Shown here: positions 8,073 to 44,169 of the stretch, piece after piece
Layout of the letters: each line of letters opens with the position of its first letter
Position numbering within the stretch: position 1 is the stretch's first letter
NCBI GenBank assembly: GCA_022478985.1
Contig: JAKSZP010000112.1
Location: 1 to 64,000 of the forward strand
Direction of reading: 5' to 3'
Source of the DNA: Massospora cicadina
Lineage: Eukaryota > Entomophthoromycota > Entomophthoromycetes > Entomophthorales > Entomophthoraceae
DNA: 64,000 nt
Made by a program: the position numbers and the translations under genes
Notes under the pieces: generated by a model
Told to the model about the DNA's origin: nothing
Database searches by the model: none
Seen by the model: only the letters and a program-made list of their open reading frames with translations

Positions 8073-8285
8073 TTCAACCAATGGTGCACCGCACTCAAGC
8101 GCACCACAAAAAATCGTTCTGCAGTGGGGAAACCAAAAGTGAAGGCTAAAGCCAATGTGAACCCAACTGCCAAACTCACCCACTCTTCTGACTATGTTGA
8201 TGCACACACCTGAGGCGCCAAGAAGTGCCGTGAGGATCAAGAGGAGGCTGAAGGGCCCAGGTGCCCTTCCCCTCACACCTAAGGT

Positions 8286-9409
8286 GTGATGGAGGGAGCC
8301 TTTACTTTAGGGATGTTGAACATCGCCAGACTCAAGGCTTTGCCATCCTGGGCTAGGAAACTGAGTTTTTTACAAAATAATTTACCTGTGGACATCCTGG
8401 CCATCCAGGAGTCCCACTGTCCGCGAGTTTCTGAGGATGCTTGGAAAACCATGCTCCTCCCATCCCAGTCCTTCTGGTCTGAGCACTGTGGGGTGCTTGT
8501 TCTAAAAAACAATTCTATCAAATTTTTATCATCAGAATCCTTCCTTAATGGCCGAGTCCTCATGGTCAAATTTTTGTGGGCTGACGTGGCGCACACTATT
8601 GTCAACATTTATGCCCCAACCTGTGCATGAGAGTGTCAGGAATTTTTTTCTCATTGGTCAAATCACTTCTGCTACCCTCTGACCCTTTTGTAGTCAGCAA
8701 TATGAACTGTTAGTTGGACCCATCCACTGACCGCTGGCCTCCCTCACCCTCCCCACCCCAGGGTCACGTAGAACTTCATGTCCTAAAGGCCACCCTAGGG
8801 TTGTTTGATGCACTGTCACGCCATGCTCCACTACTCGAGAACATGTAGCGCCCACACATCCACAACGGCCAGTTAAGGCCCATGTCCCACATCAACCTCA
8901 TCCTCACGCCAATGAAATTTCATACCCAGATTTCCCACTTCCGCATGTCAAAAATTGGTTTCTCCGATCACAGGCTGATCTCAATCACCTTCCACCTACC
9001 TGACCCAGCAGCTCAGGCTCCGCACTGGTGCAAACTTTTCCCACCCAAAATTACATCGCCAAGATTTTCCACATGGGTGGAATCTGCGACTTCGGCACAG
9101 GAGTTTATCACACCATTTTGTGCTGACCCAATTTCCACCTGGTCAGCCTTCAAAGTGGACACAATCTGCCACACTCGCCACCTCTCCTCCCACTGCTCAC
9201 ACTCTACCTCGGTTGTCATCTCTCGCGCTGTGGCGGAACTAGCCCACCTGGAGTCCAATATCCCAGCCATGGGCTACAGCTCTGCTTGGGGTTGCAAGTG
9301 GGTGGAAGTAGCCGCCCACCTTAACACTCTTGAGAGACAACACAAGCATCGGGTTTGTGTTCAGTACAGAGCTAAACACATCACAGCAGGTGACACATGC
9401 TCCACTTAA
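8286..9409 (+). pseudogene. LINE-1 ORF2 N-terminus: AP-type endonuclease
   Basis: The protein starts MMEGAFTLGMLNIARLK. The family's nicking endonuclease motifs are visible: VDILAIQESHC near residue 35, VNIYAP near 8600, and SDHRLI near 8965, the conserved Ser-Asp-His. The GDxN position is damaged (8695-8710, SNMNC). This domain cuts the target DNA to prime reverse transcription. Frames break at about 8630 and 8880. The ORF1 stop and ORF2 start are about 210 bases apart, so ORF2 would need reinitiation or a separate mechanism. Confidence 0.82.
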
Positions 9410-9429
9410 TTTTTTCAATAATTCTTTGC

Positions 9430-10470
9430 ACCATGCCAGAGCTTGGCCTGCACACAAGTGCTTAAGCCAGACAATTCTGTCATGGATAAGCTAACTGAAG
9501 TAGTGATTGAGATATAAAATTATTACTCTGAGTTATACTGATCTGAAACATTTCTGCCAGCCAAAATGGCGAAATTTCTCGATAGCGCTCACATATGCAC
9601 TGTTTCTAGATACCTGGAGTTAATGAATTTGATTACTCCAGACAAACTATGGTATGCCATCTGTGGTGCACCAAATCAGATATGCCCCGGCCTGATGGCA
9701 TTCTGCATGAGTTCTATAAGAAGTACTTCAAATATTATCTCCACTGTTGCTTGCCTCCCTTAACTAGAGCCTTCTGGAAATGCGCCTTCTACCAGGAGGG
9801 CAAGAGGCCTACACCGTTATGCTATTTATGAAAGGGGATAAGCTAGACCTAGCCAACTGGTGCCCCATTTTTCTAACTAACACGGATACTAAATATTTAA
9901 CTAAACTTATGGCTTACCGTCTAAGGATTGTAGTATCTGCCATCATCTCTCCAGAACAATTTGGTTTCATACCCAGAAGGTTGATTTGGGACAACGTACA
10001 CTCTGTGGCTAAAGCATGTCAGTCCACGGCCTCTGGGGCACTTGTATTTTTAGACCAAAAGAAGGCCTATGATAGATTAAACTGGGATTACCTCAGGGTC
10101 TTCCTACACTAATTCCGCCTACCCCCCCCACTTCATCAGCTGGGTGAAGCTGATGGAATCTGCAACAATGGCAGTGCGTGGCCCTGGCTTCCTCACGGAA
10201 GTCTTCCGCCCTCAAAGGGGCCTACGCCAAGGGGACCCCCTTAGCCCCCTCTTATATAACTTCAGCCTTGACCCACTACTTTGGAACGTGAATGCCCGCC
10301 TCACTGGGGTCCATGTGCAAGGCCAAGCCCCAGTCAAGATGATGGCATTTGCTGATGATTGTGTAATTGGGGTGTCTAATAATCATGATTCACTTGTGCT
10401 TGAGCCCTTATCCAGGCTTACTCCCGGGTAAGTAATGCTGCACTAAATGCCTCCAAAACTGAAATCATCC
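9430..10470 (+). pseudogene. LINE-1 ORF2 reverse transcriptase
   Basis: RT motifs in order: NWCPIFLTNTDTKYLTK, EQFGFIPRR, motif A FLDQKKAYDRLNW, motif B RQGDPLSPLLYN and motif C AFADDC (FADD at 10348-10359). Catalytic aspartates are kept. The frame is broken near 9690, at 10112 (TAA where LINE-2 has a Gln codon) and near 10430. TGA at 9539-9541 in the linker is shared with LINE-2 at the same place. Confidence 0.88.
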
Positions 10471-11941
10471 TCCTTGGTCAGTATCAAACCCGCTGGGCCT
10501 CAGCGGCCTGTTTCCAGCCCAGCCCATCTGCTCACAAACGTGCCTGCTTACCCTGCCCACCCCACACCGCCCCACTTGTGCTCCCCTTTGTGCAGCGCCC
10601 CACCGTTGGGCCCATCCGCCACTTAGGGGTGTGGTTGGAAGCAGGCGGGTATGACTCCTTATTAATTAAAAACCATATTCTGGATAACGTGACGAAGCGC
10701 ATAGCTTCCCTCAGAGCCCACCCTACTTCCCTTACTGGAAGGGTTGTTCTAGCCAACTCTATGCTCCTCTCCAAAGTTTGGTTTGGAGCCCACGCCATCG
10801 CCTTCTCCCCAGGTTTTTTCAAATCTCTGTATACCCTTCTACAAGGGTGGCTCTGGTTGGGCCACCCACCGCCAGTGCGTCTTGAGGTCATGTCTGGCCC
10901 TCGCCATAGTGGTGGCATGGGCCTGCTCGACTTTGAGGCCCATGCTGCAAAGATACTGGGCACTTGGATCACAGCCATCACCATCCCTACGATCCCCTCC
11001 CAACACTGGTCATGCGCGGCCCGCTCCAACTTCTCCCGCGCCCTGGGCCTTTCCAATCCATCACACCCTCACTCCTTGATGAAATATCTGGCTTCCCACC
11101 CTTCAGCCGCTGGTCCTCATGGTACTGCACCCCACTTCAAATGAATACTTCTCTCCATGCAGAGCTCTGAGTGGAGATTCCGTAATTGTGGGCACACAGC
11201 CCAGAGAGGGCGCCCCTCTCATCGGGTCACACATGAGTTACAGAAGCTACCCATTCTGGACGGAATAATACCCACACGGTCCCATGTTCTATCCAGGGTG
11301 GACTACCTGGACATGATGGACATTCTTTATTTCCTTGAAACCCAGAAGACAATATGGACTTACAACCACCACCCTCTGCTGCTGCCTAATGTCCATTCCC
11401 ATGTGTGGCAATGTCAGAGGTGGGTGTACAATACTGCTGAGCGCTCTAACACTCTACACTCATCCTGCGTCATGTGTGGCCAGTATGGAACACTGTTTCA
11501 CCGCCTGGAGAAGTGCCCTACCTCTAAAGCGATATGGCGTGAGGTGCAACGTCTGATTGGCCAGGACCAGACACATACCTTCAGTTTATCAGGGATATGT
11601 TTGCTTTATCTATGGTCTCCCCTCTCCCACCCTCCCTCCGTGCTCTGGTGATTGCAATCGCCATGTGGACCATCCACACAATTGTCTTAGATGCCATTGC
11701 AGGCTTCACCCCCACCTTCCTAGAAGCCGTCCACTGGTTCTGGTCACACTTAGTAGACCACTTTCAAGCGTGGATGTTTGGGTACCTCCCACCGCGTCGC
11801 CGTCAGTTGGTCTCCTCCTGTTTCCCAGTTTGGTTCATCAACTTGGACCCCTTCCTACACACGTGCTCAATTGTGGTTTTGGCCCCTTTACACGTTCCCC
11901 CTCCTCCCTGTAGTGGCGTTCCCGCTGGCAACAGGATATAG
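10470..11941 (+). pseudogene. LINE-1 ORF2 C-terminus with CCHC motif
   Basis: Two frames at 10578-11144 and 11157-11651 continue the RT thumb and the C-terminal domain. The motif SCVMCGQYGTLFHRLEKC (around 11466-11520) has pattern CX2CX7HX4C, the conserved cysteine-histidine motif at the end of L1-type ORF2. The last part is open in another frame to 11941. A tail AATAAATAAAAAT ends the element at 12043. Confidence 0.82.
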
Positions 11942-12043
11942 CATTGCTTCTCTGGGGTGCCTCCCCTGTTCTACGTTCCATTTTCTTTATGTCTTTTTGG
12001 AAGTGTCCATCCCCTGGTCGGCCTTCCCCACAATAAATAAAAA

Positions 12044-12060
12044 TAGAAAGCTTTGGGGAA
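12044..12060. repeat. Right target-site duplication of LINE-1
   Basis: Identical 17-base copy of 6767-6783. Confidence 0.9.
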
Positions 12061-13483
12061 TATTTGGGATTATCCCTGACATTTATAAAAAGCTGACCTT
12101 TTCCAATTTTGGTGTGCTTCATTGCTTTATTTATGCTTGCCAAATTTCTGGTGGTTAGTCCAGGATACCTCAAGAAATCATTTTTTCATATAAAGTGGCA
12201 GATTAACTTTAATTACTAGAACTGTTGGCAACACGGATAGACCATCTTTATTTAATGTATAGTCCCCACTTGGTGTGCAATATCAAAATTTTACACTTGA
12301 AATACTAAGGCTCGACAGGAAATCTATATAAAGGTTCTATTATATTATACAGACATTGCAGTGAAAAATGGTCTATCAACGACTTAAAATGTAAGCCATG
12401 AATTATATTCTAAATTGCTTAGAAGCATATAATACTACAAGGCATTCCCACTTTGTCACAGTGTAGCTTTTCTCCGGCATTCTTAGAGTTCATCTCACTT
12501 ATGCTATAGGGTATTCATCACCAATTTCATCTACATGTCCTAATCAGACACTAATTGCTATTAAGGATGCATTTGTTTGTATAATGAATGTAAATTAAAA
12601 TTTAATTATTTAATTTTAGTTAAGTCATTAAATATTCCAAATGCAATAGTTATAGCTCTGGAATTCCTCATTCCATTAAAAGCCTTTTAGGGATACTTCA
12701 GCAGTTAAAAATTGGCTCACACTGAAAAAAAAAGTTTATAAATGAAGCAATGATAATAGCTGACCAATACTAAGAATAATTGCACATAAACATTTTTTAG
12801 CTGTGACATTGCCAGAAAGCCTCAACTTTCTGGTTTTGAGGTCTCAATGCTTCAGCTTCTACAATAAAACCTATATAGTAAATCTCTTTTTTATAAATAA
12901 GTGCCATTTTTGAGGTTTTAGATTCAATTTGCTGCTGATATATTTCTGAAAACAACTTCAAGTGTTCCAGGTGATCAATAAATTGCAACTAAAAACATGA
13001 TACCATCTAGGTTGATGAGAATGCACAATAATTACAGATAACCTAACATTGTATACATTGTTCGTTGAAATGTAGCTTACACATTGAAAAGACCTTTGGG
13101 CATTTGCATTGGTTGATATAATCCCAGCTGGTAATGATTGCATGTTTTTTTACTTCTTTAGGTATATCAATTTTATAGTATCCAGATATGAGCTCGATTT
13201 CTGAAAAGAATCAAGCCCCTCCTCGGAAATCAAGAGCATCACCTATTCATGGTGGTGAGTATGAGTCTTTTTTCATTAATCTAATCAGCTGATGGTTATA
13301 ATAACAACTCATTTAGATACATTTTTATTTTTACAAATATAAGATTGGAATTGCCCAAGAACTGAAAGATGAAACCAATGATTCATGTTTGAGTAGGTTG
13401 GCAACTATGACCTCACTAACTTATCAGATCTAATTGGCCACATCCAAAAGCATTTGATCCCTGAAATCAACATTATGAATATA
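12061..13483 (-). pseudogene. RNase H/reverse transcriptase region of gypsy element B
   Basis: A minus-strand frame at 12797-12988 reads IDHLEHLKLF and later EALRPQNQKVEAFWQC, the RT thumb that follows the catalytic loop in Ty3/gypsy. Just upstream, the catalytic loop itself is at 13002-13013 and reads NLDG in place of YLDD. The expected RNase H lies at 12100-12700 but no frame is open. The gene continues from the integrase part at 5850-6766 after LINE-1, and is cut at 13484 by element C. Inactive. Confidence 0.72.
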
Positions 13484-17875: not shown

Positions 17876-18439
17876 TTTACCTCCTTTTAACAGTGAAAAT
17901 TTAATTTAAATAAACAATGGACAATAAAGATTTGGCTTTGGAAAACGCCTCAGATCGTGAAGCCGCCTGTCTCAGTGAATGGGCAATCGATATGCACATA
18001 AGAGTATATCAGCAAACCATGACATTCTATTTCCCCCATCATTGGAAATGACTCTCCATGCTCCGTCTTCAGAGAAATATAACTTACTCTTATCAGACTT
18101 TGCCGAAGCTCTCCAGCTCCTCTTATATGGGGCCATTGTTCCTGGAGGCTGAGCTAATAGAAGATGAACTCTTGTGGTATTAGCCCCTATGATTTTATTG
18201 GCCCAAAATCTTTGTTCTATGTAGATCAGGTTTGAGCTGGACGTACAGAATACTTTTTGCGTCAATTTGCACATCCCACATTGTACCATCTACTGCAAGT
18301 AGCCAGGTTCCATAACCAGGAACTACTACGAGTTCTTCAGTTATTTGAGATGAAATATATGCAACTCCTCCTGTTCTACCAATCTGCCTCCCAGTTCAGC
18401 AGTGAAAAATGAAACGCTTTATTGAGAAATCGGCAGCTC

Positions 18440-20100
18440 ATCAATGAGATATAAGACGTGTCAACCCACTTAGATCGAAGGATCATGAGATCATTTAAAC
18501 GGAACTCATTAATTTTAGTCAACTAGAGGTCAATATTCATACACAGGTCGTAGAGTATACCTTTGAGTTACAAACTGAAGCTGGTAACTTTATGACCTAT
18601 GTGGACAAACGTCTCCGCTTGTTGCAAAAAATGATCTAGGAAGTATGTGATGGCCAGATTATCCTCTATTCTTTAGGACCACAAGGAGTGCCTGCTGAGC
18701 GCAGACCTCTAGTTGTGATGGACATGATTGTGAACGAGAACCCACTTGAAAATTTGGAACCTCTGGTAGTGACGGACATGTTGGAGGACGGACCCCTGGA
18801 CCTCCTGGTCTTAATGCTGACTTAGGCATCCCTGATGAACGCCTCCAAGCGTTAGTTCAACAAGTTTAAAATCTCAATGTCCATTAGGACGCGTCACCCA
18901 TGGAGCTCAAATCACTTGGGATGGAGTTCATCTCTCCCTGAAATTTCCCTAACCACTCATCATGAATGCCTCAGGAACTTAGAAACCCTACCTGCTATGG
19001 TATGTGGGTTGGAGAAAATAGTGCTCGCCACTGAGCAACATTAACTCAACCTCTTAGATGCCACTACTGAGTTAAAAAAAGAAATGCAGCAGTTACACCA
19101 GCTTGATGCCATAAAATAGGATTTTGTGCCGCCCATAAACAAGTATATTTTATAATCAAAGATATCAACGACCTATAAAATCAAGTGGATGCGATTCATC
19201 ATTAAGAGTATTTTTGAAATACCGCTTCTTTGTTAGGTGAAAGCGTGGTCCCAGTGTCAGTAAATTTTTTCCACCCTTAACCCCTCCAAGTGGTATATTT
19301 AAACCCTCGTTCAAATTAAAATTACGTCCCAAGAAAGGGGAGCACCTTCTTTTTTATATTGCTATGAAAGCGCTATGTAAAAAGCTACTGACAACCAACA
19401 GCTCAAACATTTGATGAACCGTCTTAGTCGCTTGTCTCAAGACATTATGGTCTCTCATCTAATACATTGCTGTATTTGGAATGAAGCCAAGATTCCATGC
19501 TTCTAGAATTTAGGAGCGATCTAATCTTATCTAACCAAAAACAAACCTTTATGAGAATTAGTCTTAATTGGGGAGAGACCATAAATGATTTTGTGCATTG
19601 TTTTACCTCAAGTCTCATATGAGTTACAGTGAATCGTTTTACATTAGATGATGCTATCACCGCTTCATTTTTGGAGCTTAAAAATATGCCTAATATTCTA
19701 CTTTATCTTAAAGCGGTATTGTCTAACTTGACGTCCCTCCTCCATATCAAAGAAGCCATTCTGAAGACTCCTGACAAACTACACAAACCCACTGGGACAC
19801 CTTGTTTTAACAATAATAATTGCAAGCCACAAATGTTTGAAGTTACGCCCTCTGATTCGCTTACATAGATTTATTCTGCACTTTATGCAAGTAACCCAAC
19901 CATACTGTACCCTTTTGTCACAATCGCCATAATGAGATCTTAAAGACAAGTCAGTATAGTGCAAGAGGCTCCCTATGCTGACAACACTCAAGTGCCTCAA
20001 GACCCTTGTTCTAGCTCTAGTATTATTCCCAGAACCTTGGATGTTTTGTGTTAGCTGCCTAAGCAGAAGTCGATGTACATCTCTTTTATCCAAGGTAATA
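18440..20100 (+). pseudogene. Gag of element D, with collagen-like stretch and CCHC knuckle
   Basis: The structural protein, heavily broken. In order: a coiled-coil-like N-terminus (FELQTEAGNFMTYVDKRLR, about 18560-18620), a Gly-rich Gly-X-Y stretch (18676-18812; GPQGVP, GSDGHVG, PGPPG) in two frames, a Gag core (NRFTLDDAITASFLELKN near 19630-19680, matching LNLDDAINAVMSALTS of E) and a zinc knuckle at 19877-19918. The knuckle reads CTLCK-stop-PNHTVPFC, so CX2CX4HX4C with one Gln-to-stop change (CAA to TAA). The same architecture occurs in E. Confidence 0.75.
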
Positions 20101-20279
20101 AAGATCTTCAGCTTTTTTTATTTTTTATTGGGCAGATATTCCAACAAATTTTGGGGGTAAGCTCCTCTATGAAGAGCTAAGCGCTGGCAGATAAAATCTT
20201 CTTTAGTATTGACATCTTCAGCTTGGCTGTGGCAATATACCTCACTTGCTTCGCTGCAAATCCCTAATGACAGTCTTCT

Positions 20280-21420
20280 AGACGTTAAAATCGTTCAAAT
20301 CTTTGGTGATTCAGGTTGAGGTACTCATTTACAAGTTTAAAGTCCTGGAGATAATCAATACCTGTTCACTGGTTAACGTCATATCATCCCAACTTATCCA
20401 AAAGATTTTTGGCTCCAGACTTGATTGTCAGACAATTGCAATTCTGATATTGTGAGAAGAGAGGTTGAAATGAAAATAACAATACTATTTGCCAAAAGAC
20501 CATGGCCAATTTGCGTTGGAACCCCTTGAATCGGGGTAATAACTTTATCAATAATTCTTGGGCAAAAAAAACGAGTTTGGGTAAGCAAATTGCACCAACT
20601 ATGCAGTGAAATCATGGGAGTCCATCAGTGGTTCCTTTCCATCCCACTTCTAATTTAATTCAAGCACTTACGCCACAAACACCCCCTTTTATAGCCTTGG
20701 AGGGGGTCCCTCAAGGTGAAACTATTTTCTGGCAAGGTAAAGGCTCAAATATATACATATTTGCCTCACGGATATGTCATACCTACATTTGCCCCTCCAT
20801 CAGCCGTTCTCTCAAAGCGAGCTGAGATTTGAGAGTGCCAATAGGTCGAATGTCCATATTTCCAATTAGGCTCAAAGCTAATAATGAAATTGATGTTTAT
20901 TGCAATTGAAGACCATAGTCACTAAAAAAAACTAAAAACCAAAATTTATAAATAGGGTTTTTTTACCCCATGTGACAACTAATAAAATATATAAAAACTC
21001 ATTATTTTAGTAACTATTAGTGTTTTGTTAATTTTTGTATAAGTGGTGAAAAAACCCATGAATTAAATTTTTGGAATATAGGTAAAAAGGCAACAGAAAG
21101 CATCTTCAACGCATAATTTCACATTGATTCATGAAGCTAAGTATGGGACGGTAAATAATCATTCTAATAAGGCAATTGGGGCGTATTTTGCCTTTCCCCT
21201 TTTATCTGGGAAACTTATGTTTACTGTCCCTGCTATTGCCTTAGAAAATGATTATTATGATTTTCTTATATGAGACGATTTGATTCAGGAGGTTAACTAT
21301 ATAATCAACAATAAAGAAAAATACCTTTTGCTATTAGGTATCAGATCCTTTTAATATTTAAACTCCCAGTCAAAAGTAAAGGAGCCCCAAAAACTAACCT
21401 GCCTCCTCAAATATCTATCA
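20280..21420 (+). pseudogene. Protease region of element D
   Basis: The C-terminal protease signature is visible at about 21190-21300: LMFTVPAIALENDYYDFLI, where element E has FTFSIPAIVLDN and SDLLL. A Gly-Asp-Ser-Gly at 20305-20316 may be what remains of the active site but is far upstream and uncertain. A GC-poor stretch (20830-21060) between has no coding sign. Confidence 0.55.
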
Positions 21421-21423
21421 TCC

Positions 21424-22640
21424 ATGTGTAAAGTTGAATATCAGGTCTTAGAAGGAAAAACTGAGTTACCCCCTGAAGGTGTGGACTCTGAAGATGGAAT
21501 CCCTCTGTATTCCCCACATCTGATTACACTACCTTCTTTCTCCCAAGTTATTGTGGATATGGGGATTAAGATCTTCACTCCTCCATATCAAGTTTTGGAG
21601 CTATTTGGACACAAACATTTCAATTAAAGAAGCGTTGACCTGTCTGGGGATTTTGGATCCTGCTTATGGAAAATCTTTTTATTAAGAAACTAACAGATCA
21701 AACCCTCTGAGTCCCACAGTATGCCCTTATTGCTTATATAAAACTATGTCCTAATGAAAATATCGCTGACATGAGTTGTTTTGGCTCTTTACAAGATTCA
21801 ATATTTGATTCCCTGACCACCATAGATATGGTTGAAAGAAGGAATTAGAGACAATCTCACCTAACAAAAGCTGGAACGTCAAAGACATCCTCAGGGACTA
21901 TTAAAATATTTTTTCCTCAGGACCAAGTGATTACAGAAAAATGGCCGAGTATTTCACCAAATTGAGACTGAGACTCACCCTCCATTCAAAACTCGAACAT
22001 ACCAAAAATCTAAAGTTGAGGAAGCTCAAGTGACCTTAAAGCTACACCAACTTTTTAAAGCCCAGGTTATTTGTGCCTTCTAAAAGCCTGTTGGCCTCCC
22101 CACTCCTATTAATTTGGAAAAAGGATGGTGGTCACCGTGTTGTCATGAATTATCGCCGCCTCAATTCAATCACAACAAAAGATAGCTATCCATTTCTAAG
22201 TACAGATGATTCCTTATGCTTGATGTCAGGTTCCCAAATTTTTTTGGCTATGGATCTCGCCACCGGTACTGGAAAGTCAATTTATCACCTGAGGATCAGG
22301 AAAGATGCGCCCTCAACTCAAGTGAAGGACTGGTTGAGCCCACTCAAATGTCGCAGGGGTTATGTAATGCCCTTGCTACCTTCCAACGCGCCATGGACGG
22401 ACTTTTAGCTTATTTAAAAAACGTTCTTGTGTGCTAGTTTATCTTGATAAAATTACCATTTTTTGATAACCTTTAACAAGCACATAGATCATCTCAGGCA
22501 AGCTTTCTAGCAGTTACGCCAAGCTTCGTTAAAACTAAAGCTGTTAAAATGCTCCTTCTTTCATAACAGAAATGAATTTTTTGGGCCATGAGTAGGTAAA
22601 GCCGGAAATCCCCAATGGACAATAAGATTATGGCTAATTC
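21424..22640 (+). pseudogene. Reverse transcriptase of element D
   Basis: The N-terminal linker (21424-21627) leads to RT: LLIWKKDGGHRVVMNYRRLN at 22106-22170, FLAMDLATG at 22243-22269, then after a frameshift MSQGLCNALATFQRAMDG (22348-22400). The catalytic loop at 22440-22451 reads YLDK, one Asp kept and one lost. A TAG precedes it in the other frame. Inactive. Confidence 0.85.
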
Positions 22641-23455
22641 TAAGTTGTCTTACCTAAATCCCTAAGAGAACTACATGTTTTTTGGAGATGTGAGATATTA
22701 TCACCAGTTTATTCCCCACTTTGCCAAAACCTCCAAGACTCTAGTATATTTATTAAAGAATGGGATACCATTCCAAAGGAACCAATAGCAACAGCATGCC
22801 TTCAACCTGCTACACATCTCCTTCCCACTAACAAGTACATATACATCCTGATTTTGATAAACCCTTTTTCCTCTTTACTAATGCTAGCAATATAGCCATT
22901 GGAGCCATACTATTGTAGAAAAATGAAAGCTTAGTAGACCATCCTATCGCCTACTATAGCAAAACCCTAGACAGAGTCAAGCACAACTATAGTAATACAG
23001 AACGTGAATGCTTGTAAATACTATTGGCTATTAGGCATTTCCGTCCTTATTTATGAAGGAAACATTTTTTATAATCACATATCAAAATTCATTGTGATGG
23101 CTACAGCTTTTTAAGAACCCTGATGGGAGGGTAGCCGCAGGGCGTTAAAACTTCATAACTACGATTTTCCATTATTTATTGACCAGGTCCTATACACCAA
23201 AGCGCGGAGTGCCTATCCCAGCTTCACATATTAGCTTTAATCACCCCTAAAGATGATCGACTCTACAACCTTCTAACTCAATTCTATTCATGGAAGGAAG
23301 AATCTCCGGCCCTTCAAAAGGAATTAACAAAGAAATCAGCTAATCATGTCAAAAATTGGTCAACTGTACAAAGTTGTTTTCCAAAAATAGTTGCCTACAT
23401 CTGGCTCTCAGCTTGAACTGATGTCAATTTGGAGGGACATCAGTAAGTTGACCGT
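22640..23455 (+). pseudogene. RNase H and zinc-finger start of element D
   Basis: RNase H signatures are clear but split by stops: TNASNIAIGAILL (22875-22915), then DHPIAYYSKTLDRVKHNYSN and ERECL, ending with AIRHFRPYL (23020-23060). The connector runs to 23455, where the integrase HHCC finger begins (LEGHQ near 23430-23447). Element E is inserted right after this point and the finger resumes at 30005. Three TAG or TAA codons lie in RNase H. Confidence 0.8.
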
Positions 23456-23803
23456 TGGTATCAGAATTTCGCCAAATTCATCTGTTCCCAAAACGTTTAC
23501 TGAAATATCCCTCTGATAATATCAGAGGGGGAACTCAATGAATCTACTTTTGTCAAGCCTAAACCAAAAGAGCATTCTTATCCTGAACAGGTAATATCAG
23601 AAGATATGATCGCTCAACGATTGGAAAGATCTGATGAAACCAGAACTACTTCAGAGCCTATAAATATTTAATCCTTTCATATTTAAAGAATAAGTCTATT
23701 TAAAACCTTATTTTTAATATTGTTCATAACTTTTCTGGTAAATCCGCCTATGTTACTTCAAGATAATGCCTGCCATTTTTGAAGCGTAATTCAAAAATTC
23801 AAA
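23456..23803 (+). repeat. 5' LTR of element E
   Basis: About 348 bp. It aligns with 29663-30004: GTATCAG start, AATAATATCA, GTCAAGCCTAA, AGAGCCTATAAATATT, CCTGCCATTTTT and AATTCAAAA near the end. The start may be a few bases off. Confidence 0.75.
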
Positions 23804-23822: not shown

Positions 23823-24239
23823 CACTCTGAGTTATGCACCAGTAAAAACGTCCATCACTACAATGGACTCTCGTTTTCGCCTGAAGAATCTCATGACCAT
23901 GAGCAAGGCAGTATTCTACAATGGGTCCATTCCACTAGAACTGAAATACCAAGTGTGCCATCTACGTTGGAATTTAGTTCCAACTTAGAATTTTATGATC
24001 CCAATTTAAACTTTGTTATAATTTTTAAATACAGCCCAAGGTTTTAAAAAACATCATCTATAAGATGCTTGAGGGGTTCTAATTTTTGGAATCCATTCTA
24101 CTAAATCTTGGACTAATGCTGTACCCTCTATGACGAGGGATTTATTTCTAAACTTCTCCTTTTCCAGGTATTGGTAATGAGCAATATTTATACTTAGTTT
24201 GTACACCCTACGCTATACCAATTATAACAAGTAGTAGGA

Positions 24240-26070
24240 ATGCATCATCAAGGGATGTTTAAATTCTTAGAAGGATTCCAATCATTGATTAATTATGTTT
24301 CTGAGTTTTTCAAGTCTGCCTCCAAGTTTAGCAAGGATAACCGTGATGCTATTAATAATAAGCGCAAATTATCAATGAAGTGCAACAAAAACATATTCAA
24401 CTTGATCATGGAATATTTGGATTTGTTGACTCACAATTAATGAAGCGAGCTCAGGAAATGCAGGTTGAATATATATACTTTTTACCAACTCTCTTATCAT
24501 AATTAATTGATGGAAGAGGAAATAAAAACTCGCCTCTTCCAACTGGAACAATTGTACTCTAGAATTTAATTATAAGTTGGTGAAGTAGAAAAAGCCTCAG
24601 GAACTCTGGGTCATCATGGGAAACAAGGTCCTCCTGGTGTTGAAGGACCTCGTGGGCCAACTGTGGGTGAAGAGCTACGTGGACCTCCTGGTATTGATGG
24701 ACCTTGTGGACCCCAGGTGCTGAAGAGGCCTCATGGACCGCAAGGTGCTGATGGACCTCATGGACCACCTGGTTCTGATGGGCATTCAAGATCCCTTCTG
24801 CAAGCTGAATCCCTCTAGAACATTATTGTGCGCTTGCATGAGCAAATTCCTAAAGTTGACAAGGAGTGTAATTTAACTCCTGATGTGGTAACTATTGATC
24901 CTCTGTTGTAGCTTCAATCCTTATCTCATGCATTGAATGATCTGTGTGATTGGGCTAAGAAGTGATATCTTGCTACAGGCTTATGAAGCTAAAGGCGATA
25001 TGCTTCAAACGAAGAATAAACTTTGAAATATTAACACCATGCACAGCAGGAGCAAATTTTTAGTTATCTCGCATCTTGGACAAAAATTTGGGGCATTCTG
25101 ATCTCAATCGTTGAATTAATGAGCTTTGTACTGAGAACGCTGGTTCCTATCCTCAGTATCCTTCCCAGGCTTCTGCCTCTAACTTTTATGTCTTCACTCA
25201 ACTGGAACAACCTGGTGTGCATGTTTTGAAAGTTTGTGCCCCTATGAGTTTTAAACCTGTATTCAAGAGTAAGTACTCTCCTGGTGAAGGCAGTATTATC
25301 TCATTCCTCTATTTGTATGAGAAGGCGCTGAGTGAGGCTACGGATCAGCAGAAAATGAATTATTTACTAAATTGGTTTACCCAATTAGCCAAGAGATATA
25401 TTCTTCCTCATTTGATGACTTATTATACTTAATCCCAGGTTAAGGAACCGTTGATAAAAGAATTTGGAAGTGAACAAACCTTATCCTCTCAGAAAAAAGG
25501 ATTTTATGGGCATACAGCCCCATCAAAATGAAACTACCAAAGACTTCACTCATCGATTTTATTAGGAGGATCATACTTTAGTAGCATATGGCCATTTAAA
25601 TTTGGATGATGCTATTAATGCTGTTATGTCTGCTTTAACTTCTAGGACTTATTTAAAGTCTTCCTTATTAGCGAAAAAGAACTTCAGAAGTATCATAGAA
25701 ATCAAGGAGGCTTTGTTGGAATTGCCTGCTCAATTTTCTAAAAAACCATAAACCTACAACTCTCCAAGACCCAGTCGTCCTATAGTATATGAAGTGCCTG
25801 AAACTGCTAGAGCTATTCAGTGTAACTAGTATCACCAAAACTTCCATACAGAAGCCCGTTGTTATAAATAGGTTGCTGATGCAAAGTCGAAATAAGAAAT
25901 GACCAATTCATTCACCATCTTGATAATGATATGAGTATGCAGCAGGAACATCAAAACCGTGTAGAATATAATAAAGACTAGTAGAAATCCTATTCCTTGC
26001 CCTCCTTCTTGGCTTTACCCTCTCAGTTATTAAAGAATGATCAAACGTATTGATTTTCAAGTGAATCAAA
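24240..26070 (+). pseudogene. Gag of element E
   Basis: The first open part (24240-24440) has FKSASKFSKDNRDAINNKRK. A heptad-like stretch EEEIKTRLFQLEQLYSRI follows, then the collagen-like segment. Downstream are a Gag core (25217-25432; YEKALSEATDQQKMNYLLNW), LNLDDAINAVMSALTS near 25598-25645, and a zinc motif at 25821-25861 reading CN-stop-YHQNFHTEARC, which looks like the C-YH-H-C type of Gag finger. Stops are mostly TAA/TAG where Gln or Glu is expected. No single frame spans the gene. Confidence 0.78.
24600..24781 (+). other. Collagen-like Gly-X-Y segment within Gag of E
   Basis: From 24600 the frame has Gly at nearly every third residue: GTLGHHGKQGPPGVEGPRGP, GPPGIDGPCGP, then after a short shifted piece GPQGADGPHGPPGSDG. 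Proline is common in the X and Y positions, as in collagen triple helices. The short out-of-phase piece (24713-24733) is explained by one lost and one gained base, which restore the frame. Element D has a poorer version at 18676-18812. Elements A, C and F show no such stretch. In viral and bacterial proteins such segments form trimeric stalks; here the role is unknown. Confidence 0.82.
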
Positions 26071-26234
26071 AAAATGCTAAAGCCACTATTGACATTGGAT
26101 CTCCTGTGAATGTGGTCTTATCAAAATTGATAAAATAATTATGTTAACGCCCAATATTATATATTATAAAGAAAATGGCACTGCAGGACCTCAGAGTACT
26201 CAATCAATTGGAGCTTTTTTTGTCACTCCCATTG

Positions 26235-26249
26235 AAGATTGGGAAGTTT
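26235..26249. repeat. Left target duplication of the 149-bp insert
   Basis: AAGATTGGGAAGTTT, repeated identically at 26399-26413. Confidence 0.85.
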
Positions 26250-26398
26250 TGGGGTGGTGTGAGCCACCCCACCCGCAGTTGGGCCCACATCTGTGGTACT
26301 TAGATTTGCGCAGCCCCAGTGCGGCGGAGGGCAGTACCCTGGGTTTCATCCCGCAAAGTTTCCTGAACTGGGTGCCCTAAAGGGCATACAAAAACTTA
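26250..26398 (+). mobile_element. SINE-like 149-bp GC-rich insertion
   Basis: A block much richer in GC than its surroundings, bracketed by identical 15-bp repeats. It starts with a perfect hairpin (GGGGTGG at 26251-26257, CCACCCC at 26264-26270) and has another near its end (TGCCCT/AGGGCA around 26373-26386). GGGTTTCATCCC at 26341 resembles a pol III B box (GGTTCGANTCC) but is not exact, and I see no convincing A box. The last bases are A-rich. A 15-bp duplication suggests LINE-type mobilisation. No second copy is in the window. The orientation is given from the A-rich end. Confidence 0.6.
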
Positions 26399-26413: not shown

Positions 26414-27029
26414 ACTTTCTCAATACCTGCAATTGTCCTTGATAACTTGAGTTCTGACCTTCTCCTGTGTACTCAATATTTGTGGGAATTTGATGGAATC
26501 ATTTTTTACCCTAACTCTTCTCTATCCCTTTTAGGGTATAGGGTTCCATTGTTTTTATCTGAACATGCTCAACATACTAGATGTCGGGTATGTCTGTTAG
26601 AGAAATCAAGGAGGTCTTATTCCATTCAGTATTATGTTTAGGGTCCTTTTGTAAAATTACTCCCTACGCCGACTGACATATAAGAAGGGATGCCTGTTCC
26701 CCTCTAAGATTGTGATTATTCCGCCAAAATCTCAGGTTATTGTCAATATAATTTTGCATTTTTCTATTAATAAGGGATATTTACTACAAATCTAAGGCAT
26801 TTCTAATCCTTCTGCGCTTGAGATCTTGCCTTAAATTGGGGTATTATATTATGCATATTCTGGATCAGTACATGTTTTATTTTCTACCCTTAGTAATGAA
26901 CCAAAAACGGTAAATAAACAAAATCCAATAGCCCATGTCAGACTATTGCCCTTATCTTGAATTTATGACGTTACAACTTTTGGCAGTCTACAAGACTTTG
27001 GGCTGGAACCTAATCAAGAGATTCTTACT

Positions 27030-27820
27030 GTGGGACCTGCAATAGGGAAACATCTTAAAGAACAGGAGAAACAAGTGCTTCAATTATTGGAAGAGTACTC
27101 TGATATAATTGCCAAGCATACTCACGATTTTGGTAAAATGAAGGGATTAATGCATACCGTTGAAACTGGAGATCACCATCCTATTCATGCCAAACCCTAT
27201 TGTAAGTCGAAAGTGGAGGAAGCACAGGTCACCAATGACTTACATCAACTCTTGGAGGCTGGATTATTAAAACCCTTCAATATTCCTTATGCCTCACCGC
27301 TGCTATTGGTGAAGAAGGATGGCTCACATTGATTGGTTATGGATTATCACAAGTTAAATGCAATTACACATCAAAATAGATACCCTTTAACAAGAATTAT
27401 TGATTCCCTCCGGTTGGTAGCTGACTCAGCCTATTTTTTGGCAATGTACCTTACCGGTGAGTACTAGCAAATTGATTTAGCTCGAGAAGACTGAGCTAAA
27501 TGTGCCCTAATATCTAGTGAGGGTTTATTTACTCACCCATATGCCACAAGGGTTGAGCAACGCCACAGCAACATCCAAAGGGCCATGGATGGTATGTTAC
27601 AGGATTTAAAGCTGACCTATGTTTTGTATATCTGAATAATATTACTGTGTTTTCAAAAACATTTATTAAGCATTTGGATCATTTAAAAGAAGTCTTAAAC
27701 GAACTCAGAATTCGTTGCTAAATCTCAAGCATTCTAAATATTTATATCATAATGAAATGCAGTTCTTAGGTCACCAGGTTTCGGCTAAAGGAATTCAATT
27801 ACTTTCATATAAATTTAAAG
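27030..27820 (+). pseudogene. Reverse transcriptase of element E
   Basis: The N-terminal part is open at 27030-27332: LLEEYSDIIAKHTHDFGK, HTVETGDHHPIHAKPYCKSK, AGLLKPFNIPYASPLLLVKK, all in the order seen in Ty3/gypsy RT. A TGA in place of Arg (CGA) follows at 27331. Motif B is MPQGLSNATATSKGPWM-like, in two frames. The catalytic loop at 27629-27640 is YLNN, with both Asp changed to Asn (GAT to AAT). Inactive. Confidence 0.88.
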
Positions 27821-27827
27821 CTATTAA

Positions 27828-28420
27828 ATGAATGACACCTCCAACCTCCTTGTGAGATATCCAAGTTTTCATCAGTATGATTGGTATTATCATCAATTTA
27901 TACCAAAGTTTGCTGTTATGGCAGAGCCCTTATTCCATTTATTACATAAAGGTGTGCCATTTAAGTGGAGCTCAGCTCAGGAACAGTCTTTTTTCTATCC
28001 AAACTGCCTTAACTAAGGCATCTGTTTTGATCCATCCTCGATTTGATAAAGCCTTTTATTCTGCATGATGATGCAAGTAATGTAGCCATTGGGCTATTTT
28101 ATCCCTGTGGATGAAGAGCAGATCGACCATACTGTGACGTTTTATAGAAAAACAATATACAAAGCTGAGCGTAATTATAGTGTAACTGAACAGGAGTGTT
28201 AAGCTGAAATTTTAGCAATTAAGCACTTCCATCCCTTTCTATATGGTAACCATTTTATTGTTATTACCGATCATTCTTCCTTAATATGGTTACAAAATAT
28301 GAAGGATCCTGATGGAAGACTAGCTTGTTGGGATTAAAATTTTAAAAATTATGATTTTTCAATTGTACATCGCATGGGTACCAAAAATTAAAATGCTGAT
28401 GGCCTATCCCAATTACCTAA
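27828..28420 (+). pseudogene. RT thumb and RNase H of element E
   Basis: FHQYDWYYHQFIPKFAVMAE (27870-27925) and LFHLLHKGVPFKWSSAQEQS are the connection domain. RNase H follows: AERNYSVTEQEC at 28168-28200, AILAIKHFHPFLYGNHFIVI (28210-28265), TDHSSLIWLQNMKDPDGRLA (28268-28326) and NYDFSIVHRMGTKN. Several TAA codons replace Gln or Leu. The sequence is well recognisable although no frame exceeds 110 codons. Confidence 0.85.
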
Positions 28421-29662
28421 AAATGACCTTAGATTCTGGAAAAGAGGAACGGCTATATATTTTAATTGGACGTCCTGAGTTGTGGGATCAAGAATATGAA
28501 GAAGACTGTGCCTTCCTAAAAACTATTACTAAAGATATCATATTTTGGGAAGGAACTTTGTATAAGAAGGTCAAATCCAAGTGGTTACCCTTTTTGCACC
28601 CAAATTCAAGATACCATCCTATCATGGAAGGACATGAACAAGTAAGTCATAGTGTTTTAAAGAAAACCCAAGAGTAGTTGAAAACCCAATACTATTGAAA
28701 TAATATGACAGAAACCATTAGAGACACTTAACTCATGCCTCATATGTAAAAGTCATGGTGCAACCAACCCTACATATCGGCATCAAGTGATTCCACCAAT
28801 GAAGGCGTTAAAGTGGTAAGTATTGATGTTGTTTGACCTTTTCCACAAGGGCTTCATGGAGATCAGTACATTATCATTGCTGTCGACCATTTAACAAAAT
28901 GGGTTGAGGCCATATCTATTGCTACTCCCTAATCTAAAGCCACTGCTTTATTTATCTATTACCAAATCATTACTCAACATGGGTGTCCCAAGGTCCTTAT
29001 GTCAGATAATGGAACGAATTCTACTTCTCAACTTTTACAAGAGCTTTCAAATTATTCAATACCGTCTAACGGTTTGTTGTTCCTTACCATCCATTAACTA
29101 ATGGCCATTGAGCGAGTCATTGGAACTTTAGTTTCTATATTAAGGAAGATGGCTTCAACGGACCCAACTTGGTGGAACTTCTTTTTACCCAATGTTTTGT
29201 TTGCTTACCAAATAAGTTATCATTGAGTCATCAAATTGTCACCTTTCAAATGTATTTACGGGTGAGACCCCTAAGTTCCTTCAAGAATTTAAGAAATACT
29301 CAAAGAAATTTTTACCAGAAAACTCTGATTTGGTTATGAGAAATCTGGCGGATGAGATCATTCGCCTGTAAACTTAAGCCATGTAATCAATTGAAGTTAC
29401 CACCAAGAAGGAGACCCAAAAATTAATCAACATAGACTTGTTTTACCTGAATATCAAATTGGGGATTATGTTATGCATTATCACTCCCATCCTGGTTGGT
29501 GAGCTGAGAAGTTGTGATCTAATTATCCTGGTCCTTATCGTGTTTATTCCAAAAAGGACTAGAATATTCAATTGTCCATGTGGATATAATTATAGTTGAA
29601 AAATCGTATCTACTCTAGATTTTTGAGAATTCATCCTCCTCTGCAATCAAATGTTGATGAGG
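28420..29662 (+). pseudogene. Integrase of element E
   Basis: The connector (28351-28677) ends with the HHCC start MEGHEQV. The second pair is CKSHG-type near 28735-28755. Core: SIDVV-stop-PFPQG with the first Asp (28822-28840), YIIIAVDHLTKWVEAISIAT, VLMSDNGTNSTSQ with the second Asp (28993-29030) and IERVIGTLVSILRK with the Glu (29104-29145) after a frameshift. All three catalytic residues remain. The C-terminal part has EYQIGDYVMHY and SNYPGPYRVYSK, the GPY module. Broken by shifts and by TGA and TAA. Confidence 0.85.
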
Positions 29663-30004
29663 AAGTATCAGGATTTTGGTAAATATATCCATTTCCAAAA
29701 TGCCTACCCAAATAACCCCCCAATAATATCAAATGGGGAATTAATGATTCTACTCTTGTCAAGCCTAATAAGAACGATAGTTCTTATACTAAACAGATTA
29801 TATCAGAGGATTTGATTGCTCAATGATTGAAAAAATTTGATAAAATCTGAACTACTTCAAAGCCTATAAATATTCAATCTTTTTGTTAATAAAGGTTAGG
29901 TTTAATTACAACCTTATTTTTATTGTTCGTAACTTTTTAGAAAATCAACCTAAGTAACTTCGAGAGAATACCTGCCATTTTTAAGTGTAATTCAAAACTT
30001 CAAA
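29663..30004 (+). repeat. 3' LTR of element E
   Basis: About 342 bp, preceded by the purine-rich GATGAGGAAG. It aligns with the left LTR. D's integrase resumes directly after it. Confidence 0.75.
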
Positions 30005-38989: not shown

Positions 38990-39939
38990 TCAGACGAGAC
39001 AAAACTCAGTACCAGGTGAGGCACCCCAGAGAAGCGATGCTATCTCTTGTTGCCAGCGGGAACGCCACTTATGGGAAGGGGAGGAAACGTGTGTAGGGGG
39101 CGTAGCCACTATTGAGCACGTGTGGAGGAAGGGGTCTGATTTGATGAACCAGACTGGGAACCAGGAGGAGACCAGCTGCCGGCGACGTGGTGGGAGATAT
39201 CCAAACATCCACGCTTGAAAGTGATCCACCAAATGAGACCAGAATCTGTGGACAGCTTCAGGGAGGGTGGGGATGGATCCGGCGATGGCATCCAAGACAA
39301 TCGTGTGGATAGTCCACATGGCGATTACAACCACCAGAGCACGAAGGGAGGGTGGGAGGGGGAGGCCATTGATGAAGCAAACATATCTCTTGACAGACTG
39401 AAGGGATGTGTTTGATCCTGGCCTAGCAGACGTTGGACTTCGCGCCATATTACTTTAGAGGTGGGACACTTCTCCAGGCGGTGAAACAGCGTTCCATACT
39501 GGCCACACACGACACAGGATGAGTGTAAAGCATTAGAGCGCTCAGCTGTACGATACACCCGCCTCAGGCAGCGCCACACATGGGAACGGACTTGAGGCTG
39601 CAACAGAGGATGGTGTGCGTATTTCCAGATAGTCTTCTGGGTCTCAGTGGAATAAGGGATGTCCATCATGTCCAGGTAGTCCACCCTGGATAGGACTTGG
39701 GGTCGAATGGGGATCACGCCATCATGGATGGGTAGCCCCTGTACCTCTTGTGTGAACTGAGGAGAGGGGCGGCCTCTTTGGGTTGTATGTCCACTAATAC
39801 GAATTCTCCACTCTGCGCTTTGCATGGAGAGTAGGATTCGTTTGTAGTGGGTTTTGGTCCCGTGAGGACCTGTGGCTGATGTGTGTGATGCGAGGTATTT
39901 CATCAGGGAGTGGGGGTTTGATGGATTGTTGAGGCCCAA
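38990..39939 (-). pseudogene. LINE-2 ORF2 C-terminus with CCHC motif
   Basis: The frame 39325-39939 continues the RT protein and contains SCVVCGQYGTLFHRLEKC (CX2CX7HX4C), then PTSKVIWREVQRLLGQDQ. The last part is in another frame (38990-39448; AMWTIHTIVLDAIAGSIPTL, then DHFQAWMFGYLPPRRRQLV). The break between the frames lies within 39325-39448. LINE-1 has the same protein at 11157-11941. Confidence 0.85.
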
Positions 39940-39942
39940 GGC

Positions 39943-41330
39943 TCAGGAGAAGTTGGAGCAGGCCGCGCGGGACCAGTGTTGGGATGGGAGTGTAGGAGCA
40001 GTGACGGCCGCAATCCAGGTGCCTAGGATCTTGGCGGCATGGGCTTTGAAGTCAAGTAGGCCCATGCCACCATGATGATGAGGGCCAAACATGACCTCTA
40101 GCCATACTGGTGGAGGGCGGCCTGACCAAAGCCAACCTTGTAGCAAAGCATACAGGGATTTGAAGAAGCTTGGGGAGAAGGGGATGGCGTGGGCTCCAAA
40201 CCAGACTTTGGATAGGAGCATAGAGTTGGCAAGAACAACCCTGCCAGTGAGGGTAGTAGGGTGGGCTCTGAGAGAGGTGATTCGCTTCGTCACGTTGTTC
40301 AGTATATGGCCCTCCATTACTGCTGACGCGTATCCTCCTTCCTCCAACCACACGCCCAGATGGCGTACCGGTCCTATGGTAGGTCGCGGCACAAAGGGGA
40401 GCACCAGTGGAGCGGTGTGTTTTGAGTTAGTAAGGCGTGGACTTGGGCGAGCAGCTGGGCTGGGTTGGGAACTACTTGCTTGGGCCCAGCAGTTCTGAAA
40501 CCGACCAAGGAGGATGATTTCAGTTTTGGAGGCGTTCAGTGCCACGTTGCTTACCCGGGAATATTCCTGGATGAGGGCTTCAAGCGCGCGTGCATCTTTA
40601 TTATTAGACACCCCCACCACGCAATCATCTGCAAATGCCATCATCTTGACTGGGGTTTGGCCTGGCACATGGACCCCAGTGAGTTGGGCATTCACATTTC
40701 GCAGTAGTGGGTCAAGGCTGAAGTTGTATAAGAGTGGGCTCAGGGGGTCCCCTTGTCGCAGGCCCCTTTGAGGATGGACTACTTCCATTAGGAAACCTGG
40801 GCCACGCACTGCCATTGTTGCAGATTCCGTGAGCAGCATCACCCAGTTAATGAAGCGGGGAGGTAGGCGGAATTGTTGGAGGCAGGCCCTAAGGTATTCC
40901 CAGTTTACTCTATCATAGGCCTTTTGTTGGTCCAAGAATACAAGTGCCCCAGAGGCTGTGGACTGACACACATTAGCCACAGAGTGCACGTTATCCCAAA
41001 TTGACCTTCTGGGGATGAAACCGAATTGTTCTGGAGAGATGGTGGCAGATGCTACAGTCCCTAAACGGTTAGCCATGATTTTTGTTAAAATTTTGGTGTC
41101 TGTGTTTGTTAGAGAATTGGGGCACCAGTTGGCTAAGTCTAGCCTATCCCCTTTCTTGAAGAGTGTGACTGTAAAAGCCTCATGTCCTCCTGGTAGGAGG
41201 CGCATTTCCAACAGGCTTTGGTTGAGTGAGGCTAGCAGCAATGGGGATATGTATTTAAAATATTTTTTGTAGAACTCATATGGAATACCATCTGGGCCTG
41301 GGCATTTTCAGTTTGGCGCACCGCAAATGG
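39943..41330 (-). pseudogene. LINE-2 ORF2 reverse transcriptase
   Basis: The longest frame in the window (432 codons, 39943-41241). Motifs with approximate residue numbers: NWCPNSLTNTDTKILTK (38-54), EQFGFIPRRSIWDNVHS (71-87), motif A FLDQQKAYDRVNW (102-114), motif B RQGDPLSPLLYN (162-173), motif C AFADDC (202-207; FADD at 40624-40635). All catalytic Asp are present. The frame continues upstream to PGPDGIPYEFYKKYFKYI, before which a TGA (near 41311) cuts it. A stop at 39943 separates it from the C-terminus. The RT core alone may have been intact until recently. Confidence 0.92.
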
Positions 41331-42697
41331 TAGTCCATAATTTGTTCGGAGTAATTAAATTCATTATTTCTGGGTATCGGAAAATGGTGCGGATATGAGC
41401 TCTGTCGAGAAATTCCGCCATTTCGGCCAGCTGAATTGGTTCGGCTCAGTATAACTTGGAGTAATATCTTTGCATTTCAATTGCCACTTCAGCCAGTGTG
41501 TCCACGATAGAATTATCCGATCTTCGCACCTGTGTGCAGGCCACGCTCTGGCGTGGTGCAAAAAATTTTTTGAAGAAGTATGCGGTGCACTTGTCGCCTT
41601 TAGTGATGCGTGTGGCTCTGTATTGGACACAAAACTGATGTTTGTGTTGCCTTTCAAGTGCGTTGAGGTGGGCTGCTGCCTCCGCCCACTTCTGGCCCCA
41701 TGCAGGGCTATATCCTGAGGCTGGAATGTTGGACTCCAAGTGGGCCAATTCCGCCAGCGCGCGCGATATAACTGCCGATGTGGCTCATGAGCGTCTGGAT
41801 GAGAGATGGCAATAGTGGCGGATGGTGTCTTTTTTGAAAGTTGCCCATGTGGAAATGGGGTCTGCGCAAAACAGTGCAACAAACAATTTTTCCAAAGTTG
41901 CCTCTTCCACCCACGTGGAAAATCCTGGCGATGCAAGCTCTGGGGGGCGGATTTTGCACCAATGTGGGGCCTTTGCAACTGTGACGGGTAAGTGGCATGT
42001 TATTAAGACCAGTCGGTGGTCGGAGAATTCCAATTTCGTTGTTTTGAAGTGGGAGATGTGGGGTTGGAATTTCGCCGGCACTAGAATAAGGTCAATGCGG
42101 GTCATGGACCTTAATTGGCCATTGTGGATGTGGGGATGCGTCATGTTTTCGAGCAGTGGGGCATGTCATGGCAGCGCATCCATTAACCCAAGGGTGGCTT
42201 TTAGAACGCATAGTTCTACGTGACCCTGTGGGGTGTGGGGTGAGGGTGGCCACCGGTCCATTGGTGAGGTTAGCCAACAGTTCATGTCACCGATTAGGAA
42301 AGAATTGGGGGGTAGCGGGAGGGATTTGACTGATGAGAAAAATTCCTGACGCTCTTGTGCACCGTTTGGGGCGTAAATGTTGACAATTGTGTGTGCAACA
42401 TTGGCCCATGAGAAGGTGACAACGAGCACTCGGTCATTTAGGAATGTTTCTGAAGATGTAAATTTGAAATAAATTGTTTTTCTGAATTAGCACCCCACAG
42501 TGCTTCACCCAAAAGGATAGGGATGGTAGGAGCATTGTTTTCCAAGCATCCTCAGAACCTCATGGACAGTGGGTTTCCTGGATGGCCAGGATATCCACGG
42601 GTAAATTATTCTGTAAAAAACTCAGTTTCCTAGCCCGGGATGGGGAGGCCTTGAGTCTGGCAATATTCAGCATCCCTAGAGTGAAGGTTTCCCCCAT
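41330..42697 (-). pseudogene. LINE-2 ORF2 N-terminus: endonuclease and linker
   Basis: The start is Met at 42697 (GETFTLGMLNIARLK). Motifs: VDILAIQETHC, VNIYAPN (near 42370), IGDMNCW (the GDxN position, near 42285), then LEFSDHRLVLITCH (Ser-Asp-His, near 42020). The linker frame 41446-41748 (AHLESNIPASGYSPAWGQKW) ends at TGA 41448-41446, the same stop as in LINE-1. Other breaks are near 42470, 42560 and 42140. Confidence 0.85.
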
Positions 42698-42864
42698 CGC
42701 ACCTTAGGTGCAAGGGGGTGGGCCCCCTGGCCCACCAGCCTCTTCCAGGTCCCCACGGGCTTTCACAGCAGTATGGGTATTAGCAGCAACGCTATCAGGG
42801 TTTTTGTTAATTTTTGTGGAAATAGTTGCGTTGGCTTTGGCCTTCGCTTTTTGTTTTCCCAACG

Positions 42865-44116: not shown

Positions 44117-44169
44117 GGGCGCAGACTAATCCCCTCTATGAGATTATCAAACTAGATTTAGTCTTGAAT

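Follow-up and report, generated by a model that had tools for sequence, protein, structure and literature searches.

Our results indicate that, in Massospora cicadina, the Gag of a Ty3/gypsy element now in decay, here called element E, contains a collagen-like Gly-X-Y tract. As judged from sequence comparison, this tract is a genuine, selected part of Gag in a large Ty3/gypsy retrotransposon family whose members carry a dUTPase, a conclusion based on its coding sense, its presence in all 40 copies collected by a search blind to it, selection that is strongest at Gly, length change by whole triplets and its occurrence in distant relatives. We also consider it probable, with appreciable reserve, that the tract forms a trimeric collagen stalk at the N-terminal side of Gag on a capsid of putatively retroviral type, a proposal in which we infer both the triple helix and its place on the particle.

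In the window, i.e. the whole stretch of 64 kb that was analysed, the tract (Table 1) is contained in a forward-strand frame that is open for 80 codons (24576-24818). Its best 12 triplets hold 10 Gly, compared with at most seven anywhere else in the window and five as the best value in five shuffles of the whole 64 kb; chance as an origin of the tract is ruled out by these shuffles and, likewise, by those of the blind copies described below. The initial annotation had placed the Gly-X-Y stretch correctly, with one out-of-phase piece explained by a compensating base loss and gain. Such a piece, in which the phase slips and then returns, is found at 24717-24734, but it is not the only interruption: a second one, at 24663-24680, resembles two Gly lost to substitution when set against sister copies. 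The Pfam Collagen profile (PF01391) gave 27.1 bits (E 3.5e-6) on the window copy, 0.1 under its gathering score of 27.2, and Rfam gave no match at gathering score in the window. Translated in antisense (24617-24793, minus strand), the tract gives another Gly/Pro-rich repeat (GGPxGPSxP), as it does in many of the copies shown; this repeat is a by-product of the GGN/CCN codons and could deceive gene callers.

Table 1. Layout of element E in the window and the comparisons by which each feature was placed.
Feature	Position	Strand	Evidence
5' LTR remnant	23655-23794	+	blastn of L039 LTRs, 70-71% identity
N-terminal domain of Gag with helical segment, interrupted by stops and small indels	24201-24599	+	tblastn of L039 open frame, 56% identity over 24201-24959
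Collagen-like Gly-X-Y tract, two interruptions	24600-24788	+	Gly in 17 of 21 triplets (third positions)
Post-tract Gag segment (GVPxDP motif region, long predicted helix), frames broken	24789-25135 (end set by the authors)	+	tblastn of L040 Gag; helices in P0022 and L040 models
Gag capsid (CA) core	25136-25562 (start set by the authors)	+	tblastn of L040 Gag, 61% identity over 25058-25504
CA end, decayed CCHC-type zinc-knuckle region (presumed), protease-motif region (presumed)	25527-26120	+	tblastn of L039:5399-5995, 50% identity
dUTPase-like domain, in the protease/RT interval	26489-27224	+	tblastn, 46-70% identity
Reverse transcriptase (RT), decayed	27129-27795	+	tblastn of L041 and L039 RT pieces
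RNase H, decayed	27802-28283	+	tblastn
Integrase, decayed	28739-29541	+	tblastn
3' LTR remnant	29860-30001	+	blastn of L039 LTRs, 75-76% identity

The assignment of the element to Ty3/gypsy is based on its layout. Two LTRs flank the coding region, as direct repeats in the sister copy L039 (3353-3691 and 9398-9737, 88.9% identical) and as remnants in the window. The order of Pol is protease, RT, RNase H and, in last place unlike in copia, integrase, as seen from the domain order in the window and from Pfam matches on sister pieces: RVT_1 on the RT piece of L039 (E 4.4e-21), RT_RNaseH_2 on an L039 piece (E 3.1e-39) and rve on L040:240-590:- (E 4.6e-10). The dUTPase match of L039 falls just below the Pfam cut-off (E 3.6e-4; 20.8 bits against 22), and the putative protease is assigned from motif and position. 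The Gag core that had been noted downstream of the tract was recovered there with the Gag of the sister copy L040; a low-confidence monomer model of the relative P0022 gave CA-CTD fold matches, and the retroviral type of this capsid domain is accordingly tentative. Between the protease and dUTPase regions, where likeness to the sister elements ends, the stretch 26240-26380 (+) is GC-rich by eye and looks like a nested insertion. Just upstream, at 18248-23068 (+), lies a second, related gypsy element with Gag pieces (29-49% identical), dUTPase, RT and RNase H; between its Gag N domain and capsid, at about 18670-18815, there are scraps that may resemble a decayed Gly-X-Y tract. Two GC-rich LINE-type elements, similar in translation, occupy 6901-12155 (+) and 38993-44125 (-) of the window; the copy at 38993-44125 matches RVT_1 (E 1.8e-33), with zf-RVT below its cut-off. 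We take a LINE in the window to be Tad-like, and a fungal host is suggested by it and by the dUTPase-bearing type of element E.

The tract is widespread in the window's own genome (1.47 Gb). When it was used as the query, every scored candidate matched, both in the DNA search (best 40 of 1640 candidates) and in the protein search (best 150 of 6997 candidates), and the distinct copies fetched, counted after removal of the duplicates L009, L010, L016, L031 and L036, align with the tract in 96 of 96 cases. Since these copies were found with the tract itself, they are biased toward intact tracts, and this bias is answered by a blind set of 40. Its query was the 117-residue CA core of L040, from which the tract is excluded; the best 150 of 55,768 candidates were scored, and rows 2-21 and the last 20 of the 150 were taken. 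Their CA cores are 75-85% identical to the query, so that the sample represents near families of this genome, and two of the 40 (L106 and L127) are also in the 96-copy set, as L082 and L065. An in-phase tract lies upstream, on the sense strand, in 40/40 of them, with its frame broken by decay in several; their best 15 triplets hold 7-15 Gly, compared with six at most in 200 shuffled sequences. The possibility, raised in the initial annotation, that related elements lack the stretch is thus not borne out in this blind sample. The collagen profile that it had proposed to run scores above 27.2 in all three of the longer open sister frames scanned (L039, 30.8; L040, 30.0; L041, 31.0) and in P0022 (33.5); besides the window copy, P0034 misses the cut-off (24.8), and P0021 has no match.

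Across the family the tract is in phase and under purifying selection, two points that the initial annotation had proposed to check. In three random pairings of the 96 copies, divergence was 0.159-0.167 at positions 1+2 and 0.270-0.282 at position 3 (p <1e-28). Five random pairings of the blind 40 gave 0.103-0.110 against 0.203-0.253 for the whole tract (p 6e-11 to 5e-22), a positional contrast much like that in the following Gag segment. Separated by codon class, divergence in the blind 40 at positions 1/2/3 was 0.053/0.043/0.265 for Gly codons, 0.096/0.115/0.267 for X codons and 0.185/0.152/0.185 for Y codons. The feature that is preserved is the Gly spacing of the protein and, because third positions are free, an RNA or DNA signal is disfavoured as the main constraint.

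The keeping of the Gly register by selection is seen in the random pairings of the 96 and the 40 copies, and not in the 48 nearest pairs of the 96. There, the third-position excess is absent from the tract (0.131 at positions 1+2 versus 0.129 at position 3, p 0.78), and the segment before the tract shows no difference either (0.144 versus 0.133). The Gag segment after the tract is still under selection in these pairs (0.125 versus 0.173, p 2.4e-8), so they are not a clean neutral control. The nearest pairs are dominated by post-insertion decay, though decay does not account for everything, and since selection is seen there only after the tract, recent selection may be weaker on the tract than on the segment that follows it.

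According to Tandem Repeats Finder, the window copy has periods of 27 and 54, as would be found if the tract were a tandem repeat at the DNA level (27 and 54 bp), drifting by slippage and reading as Gly-X-Y by chance. We regard this as highly improbable, given that Gly codons show about five to six times as much variation at position 3 as at either of the other two, and that relatives carry different repeats at the same protein position; a noncoding repeat is ruled out by the codon positions, at which equal divergence would be expected and the opposite is found. Slippage may nonetheless be the source of the length changes, with the coding sense under selection. Relative to the reference, the tract is longer or shorter by a multiple of 9 nt in 33/96 and 20/40 copies, the latter being 20 of the 34 blind copies that differ in length at all, and such a change occurs in the flanks in 0/96 and 0/40, where small indels predominate. 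A length change not divisible by 3 affects the tract in 8/96 and 13/40 copies, and the two flanks in 23 and 30 of the 96 and in 10 and 12 of the 40. In the blind set, frame-breaking changes are therefore no rarer in the tract than in the flanks, and the low figure of 8/96 may be a result of searching with the tract.

A profile of the post-tract Gag was run against sequence databases and returned at least 19 proteins among the matches listed (7994 candidates scored), of which 16 were aligned, P0036 and P0037 were inspected besides, and P0033 was left out. Three of the 16 that were aligned (P0022, P0034 and P0021) extend far enough to cover what precedes the capsid coil. P0022 and P0034, distant relatives with roughly 30-40% identity, both have a Gly-X-Y tract at the position that it occupies in the window family, but with a different sequence; it amounts to about 15 triplets in P0022, of the GPP/GPS/GPT type, and to about 13 in P0034. 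P0021 has a degenerate Gly/Pro stretch that is short and interrupted, and the tract thus appears to be dispensable in some relatives. Homology of the flanking domains was found on both sides: the N domain of P0034 is 29% identical to that of L039 (E 7e-18) and that of P0021 is homologous to the window family (E 1e-14), while the capsid of P0001 is 38% identical to that of L040 and the remaining matches resemble P0001. On these comparisons, the tract lies between the same two homologous domains in lineages in which the X and Y residues have largely been replaced.

P0001 was considered as a relative devoid of the tract, and rejected: the MSDLP start of P0001 is shared by P0034, in which the protein goes on upstream of it into a Gly-X-Y tract, and P0001 is therefore probably a short call. 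In the search that gave P0001, the other 18 of the 19 matches carry PF01391; among these matches, P0002, P0003 and P0008 look like unrelated collagen-like proteins. Nothing was found in a plasmid search, in viral contigs searched with three Gag queries, in prokaryote genome contigs or in a protein search with a short piece.

The homologous place of the tract in distant relatives also bears on the suggestion that a fragment of a host collagen-like gene was captured, either by this copy alone or by a subfamily of recent origin. A capture at the root of the clade is conceivable, and any such event must predate the split of the lineages, because they share the tract at a homologous place. A capture unique to this copy, which the initial annotation had named as a possible outcome, and any other recent capture are ruled out by the same observation together with the presence of the tract in 40/40 blind copies, and to the capture explanation as a whole we give very little credence.

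Monomer models of P0022 and L040 show a helix, the extended tract, a helix and a long helix, at low confidence (mean pLDDT 59 and 54, with the tract mostly <50). A heptad test was significant (at most 4 of 150 shuffles) in 3 of 11 segments, namely the pre-tract segments of L039, L040 and P0021; the heptad-like N-terminus of the initial annotation can accordingly be retained in the narrower form of a helix before the tract in the sister copies L039 and L040. The low confidence of the tract in the models would also suit a flexible spacer, rich in Pro and Gly, that joins the N domain to the capsid, is selected for length and openness and forms no triple helix, as would the wide length variation among copies and the Pro-rich, interrupted version retained by P0021. 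We consider such a spacer unlikely: constraint is strongest on the Gly of each triplet, above X and Y, the triplet register is kept through many length changes, and the distant relatives swapped X and Y yet kept the spacing, whereas a linker needs no register.

A trimeric stalk remains our preferred reading. GPP and GPR, the most stabilising triplet types without hydroxyproline, make up 70 and 39, respectively, of the 225 triplets in the 15 blind copies that have 15/15 Gly, and a Gly-X-Y tract rich in these triplets and framed by helices is the usual signature of a trimeric rod. The Gag extension runs from the conserved N domain through a predicted helix, about 12-20 (rarely fewer) Gly-X-Y triplets and two further predicted helices, the second of them long, into CA and the zinc knuckle. 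Three Gag chains would form a collagen triple helix in the cytosol, with coiled coils on either side; at the collagen rise of 0.286 nm per residue, this would be a rigid rod measuring roughly 10-17 nm. The rod would trimerise Gag, nucleate or space the capsid lattice and project from the particle surface, sitting on the threefold capsomers, from which the CA N terminus of Ty3 points outward. The stalk may have its role in assembly or on the surface as a spike, or it may be like a matrix and be cut off later. As hydroxylation is not expected in a cytosolic protein, the stability of the triple helix is uncertain.

Ty3 of Saccharomyces cerevisiae shares with the family of element E the LTRs, a Gag with CA and zinc knuckle, and the PR-RT-RH-INT order, features that for Ty3 are in part common knowledge. 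To our knowledge, Ty3 has no collagen-like or long helical extension, no dUTPase and no separate matrix. In the Ty3 model described, the first 36 residues of CA have no defined secondary structure (PMC6525542). The sixfold-coordinated capsomers of Ty3 are true trimers, built of CA dimers, and CA extends outward with its N-terminal part for about 60 Å along the threefold (and fivefold) axes (PMC6525542). By analogy, a trimeric stalk at the N terminus fits the threefold geometry and would point outward. The Ty3 capsid also has fivefold capsomers (PMC6525542), which would mismatch a trimeric rod and count against the stalk model.

The position of the tract, N-terminal to CA, is that of the matrix in retroviruses, which is itself trimeric, and a protease-motif region comes after Gag in element E. 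The trimeric rod could therefore be a matrix-like extension that acts in the immature Gag precursor and is then removed by the protease of the element. We rate this as somewhat unlikely, in overlap with the preferred reading since both include the trimer; against it are the lack, as far as we know, of a separate matrix in Ty3 and the outward direction of the Ty3 N terminus on the particle noted above (PMC6525542).

Among other known systems, the capsid domains of PNMA2, PEG10 and Arc derive from domesticated Ty3/gypsy Gag, and we know of no collagen-like stalk on any of them. The matches listed in a literature search, with subscription papers and preprints mostly outside its coverage, include no earlier report of a collagen-like Gag. 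PosPlaTy3-5 of Postia placenta, a dUTPase-bearing fungal Ty3/gypsy element, carries the dUTPase between protease and RT as element E does, and the word collagen is absent from the main text of its description (PMC2864245). In the tectiviruses PRD1 and PR772, the P5 vertex spike stands on the capsid with a short, trimeric stalk formed by its collagen-like motif (PMC6750898). By analogy only, P5 is a precedent for a capsid protein able to carry a collagen-like stalk; it differs in having a 17-residue motif in a phage vertex protein with a C-terminal host-recognition knob (PMC6750898), and homology is not claimed.

These results carry a warning for annotation, given that PF01391 matches in transposon-rich genomes can be Gag. 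In the 1.03-Gb genome of Entomophthora muscae, PF01391 is described as enriched, under fungus-specific features, and dUTPase and protease domains as enriched and transposon-related (PMC11105155). The PF01391 enrichment seems to concern the secreted proteins (PMC11105155). Some of these matches might be Gag of the present kind. If the rod-studded capsids proposed below are real, then among the collagen domains for which expansion or secretion has been described in genomes rich in transposons, some would be Gag.

The Gag of LTR elements is generally described as a matrix or short tail, a capsid and a nucleocapsid. A selected collagen stalk on Gag, if true, would add a trimerisation rod that matches the threefold capsomers of Ty3, and we know of no counterpart to a rod-studded capsid among retroviruses or retrotransposons. 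It would also be a natural instance of cytosolic collagen folding without hydroxyproline. We hold it as a tentative proposal, falling a little short of an even chance, that there is a clade of Ty3/gypsy elements that assembles its capsids from Gag trimers, through an intracellular, unhydroxylated collagen triple helix set between coiled coils, and whose particles would be studded with rods.
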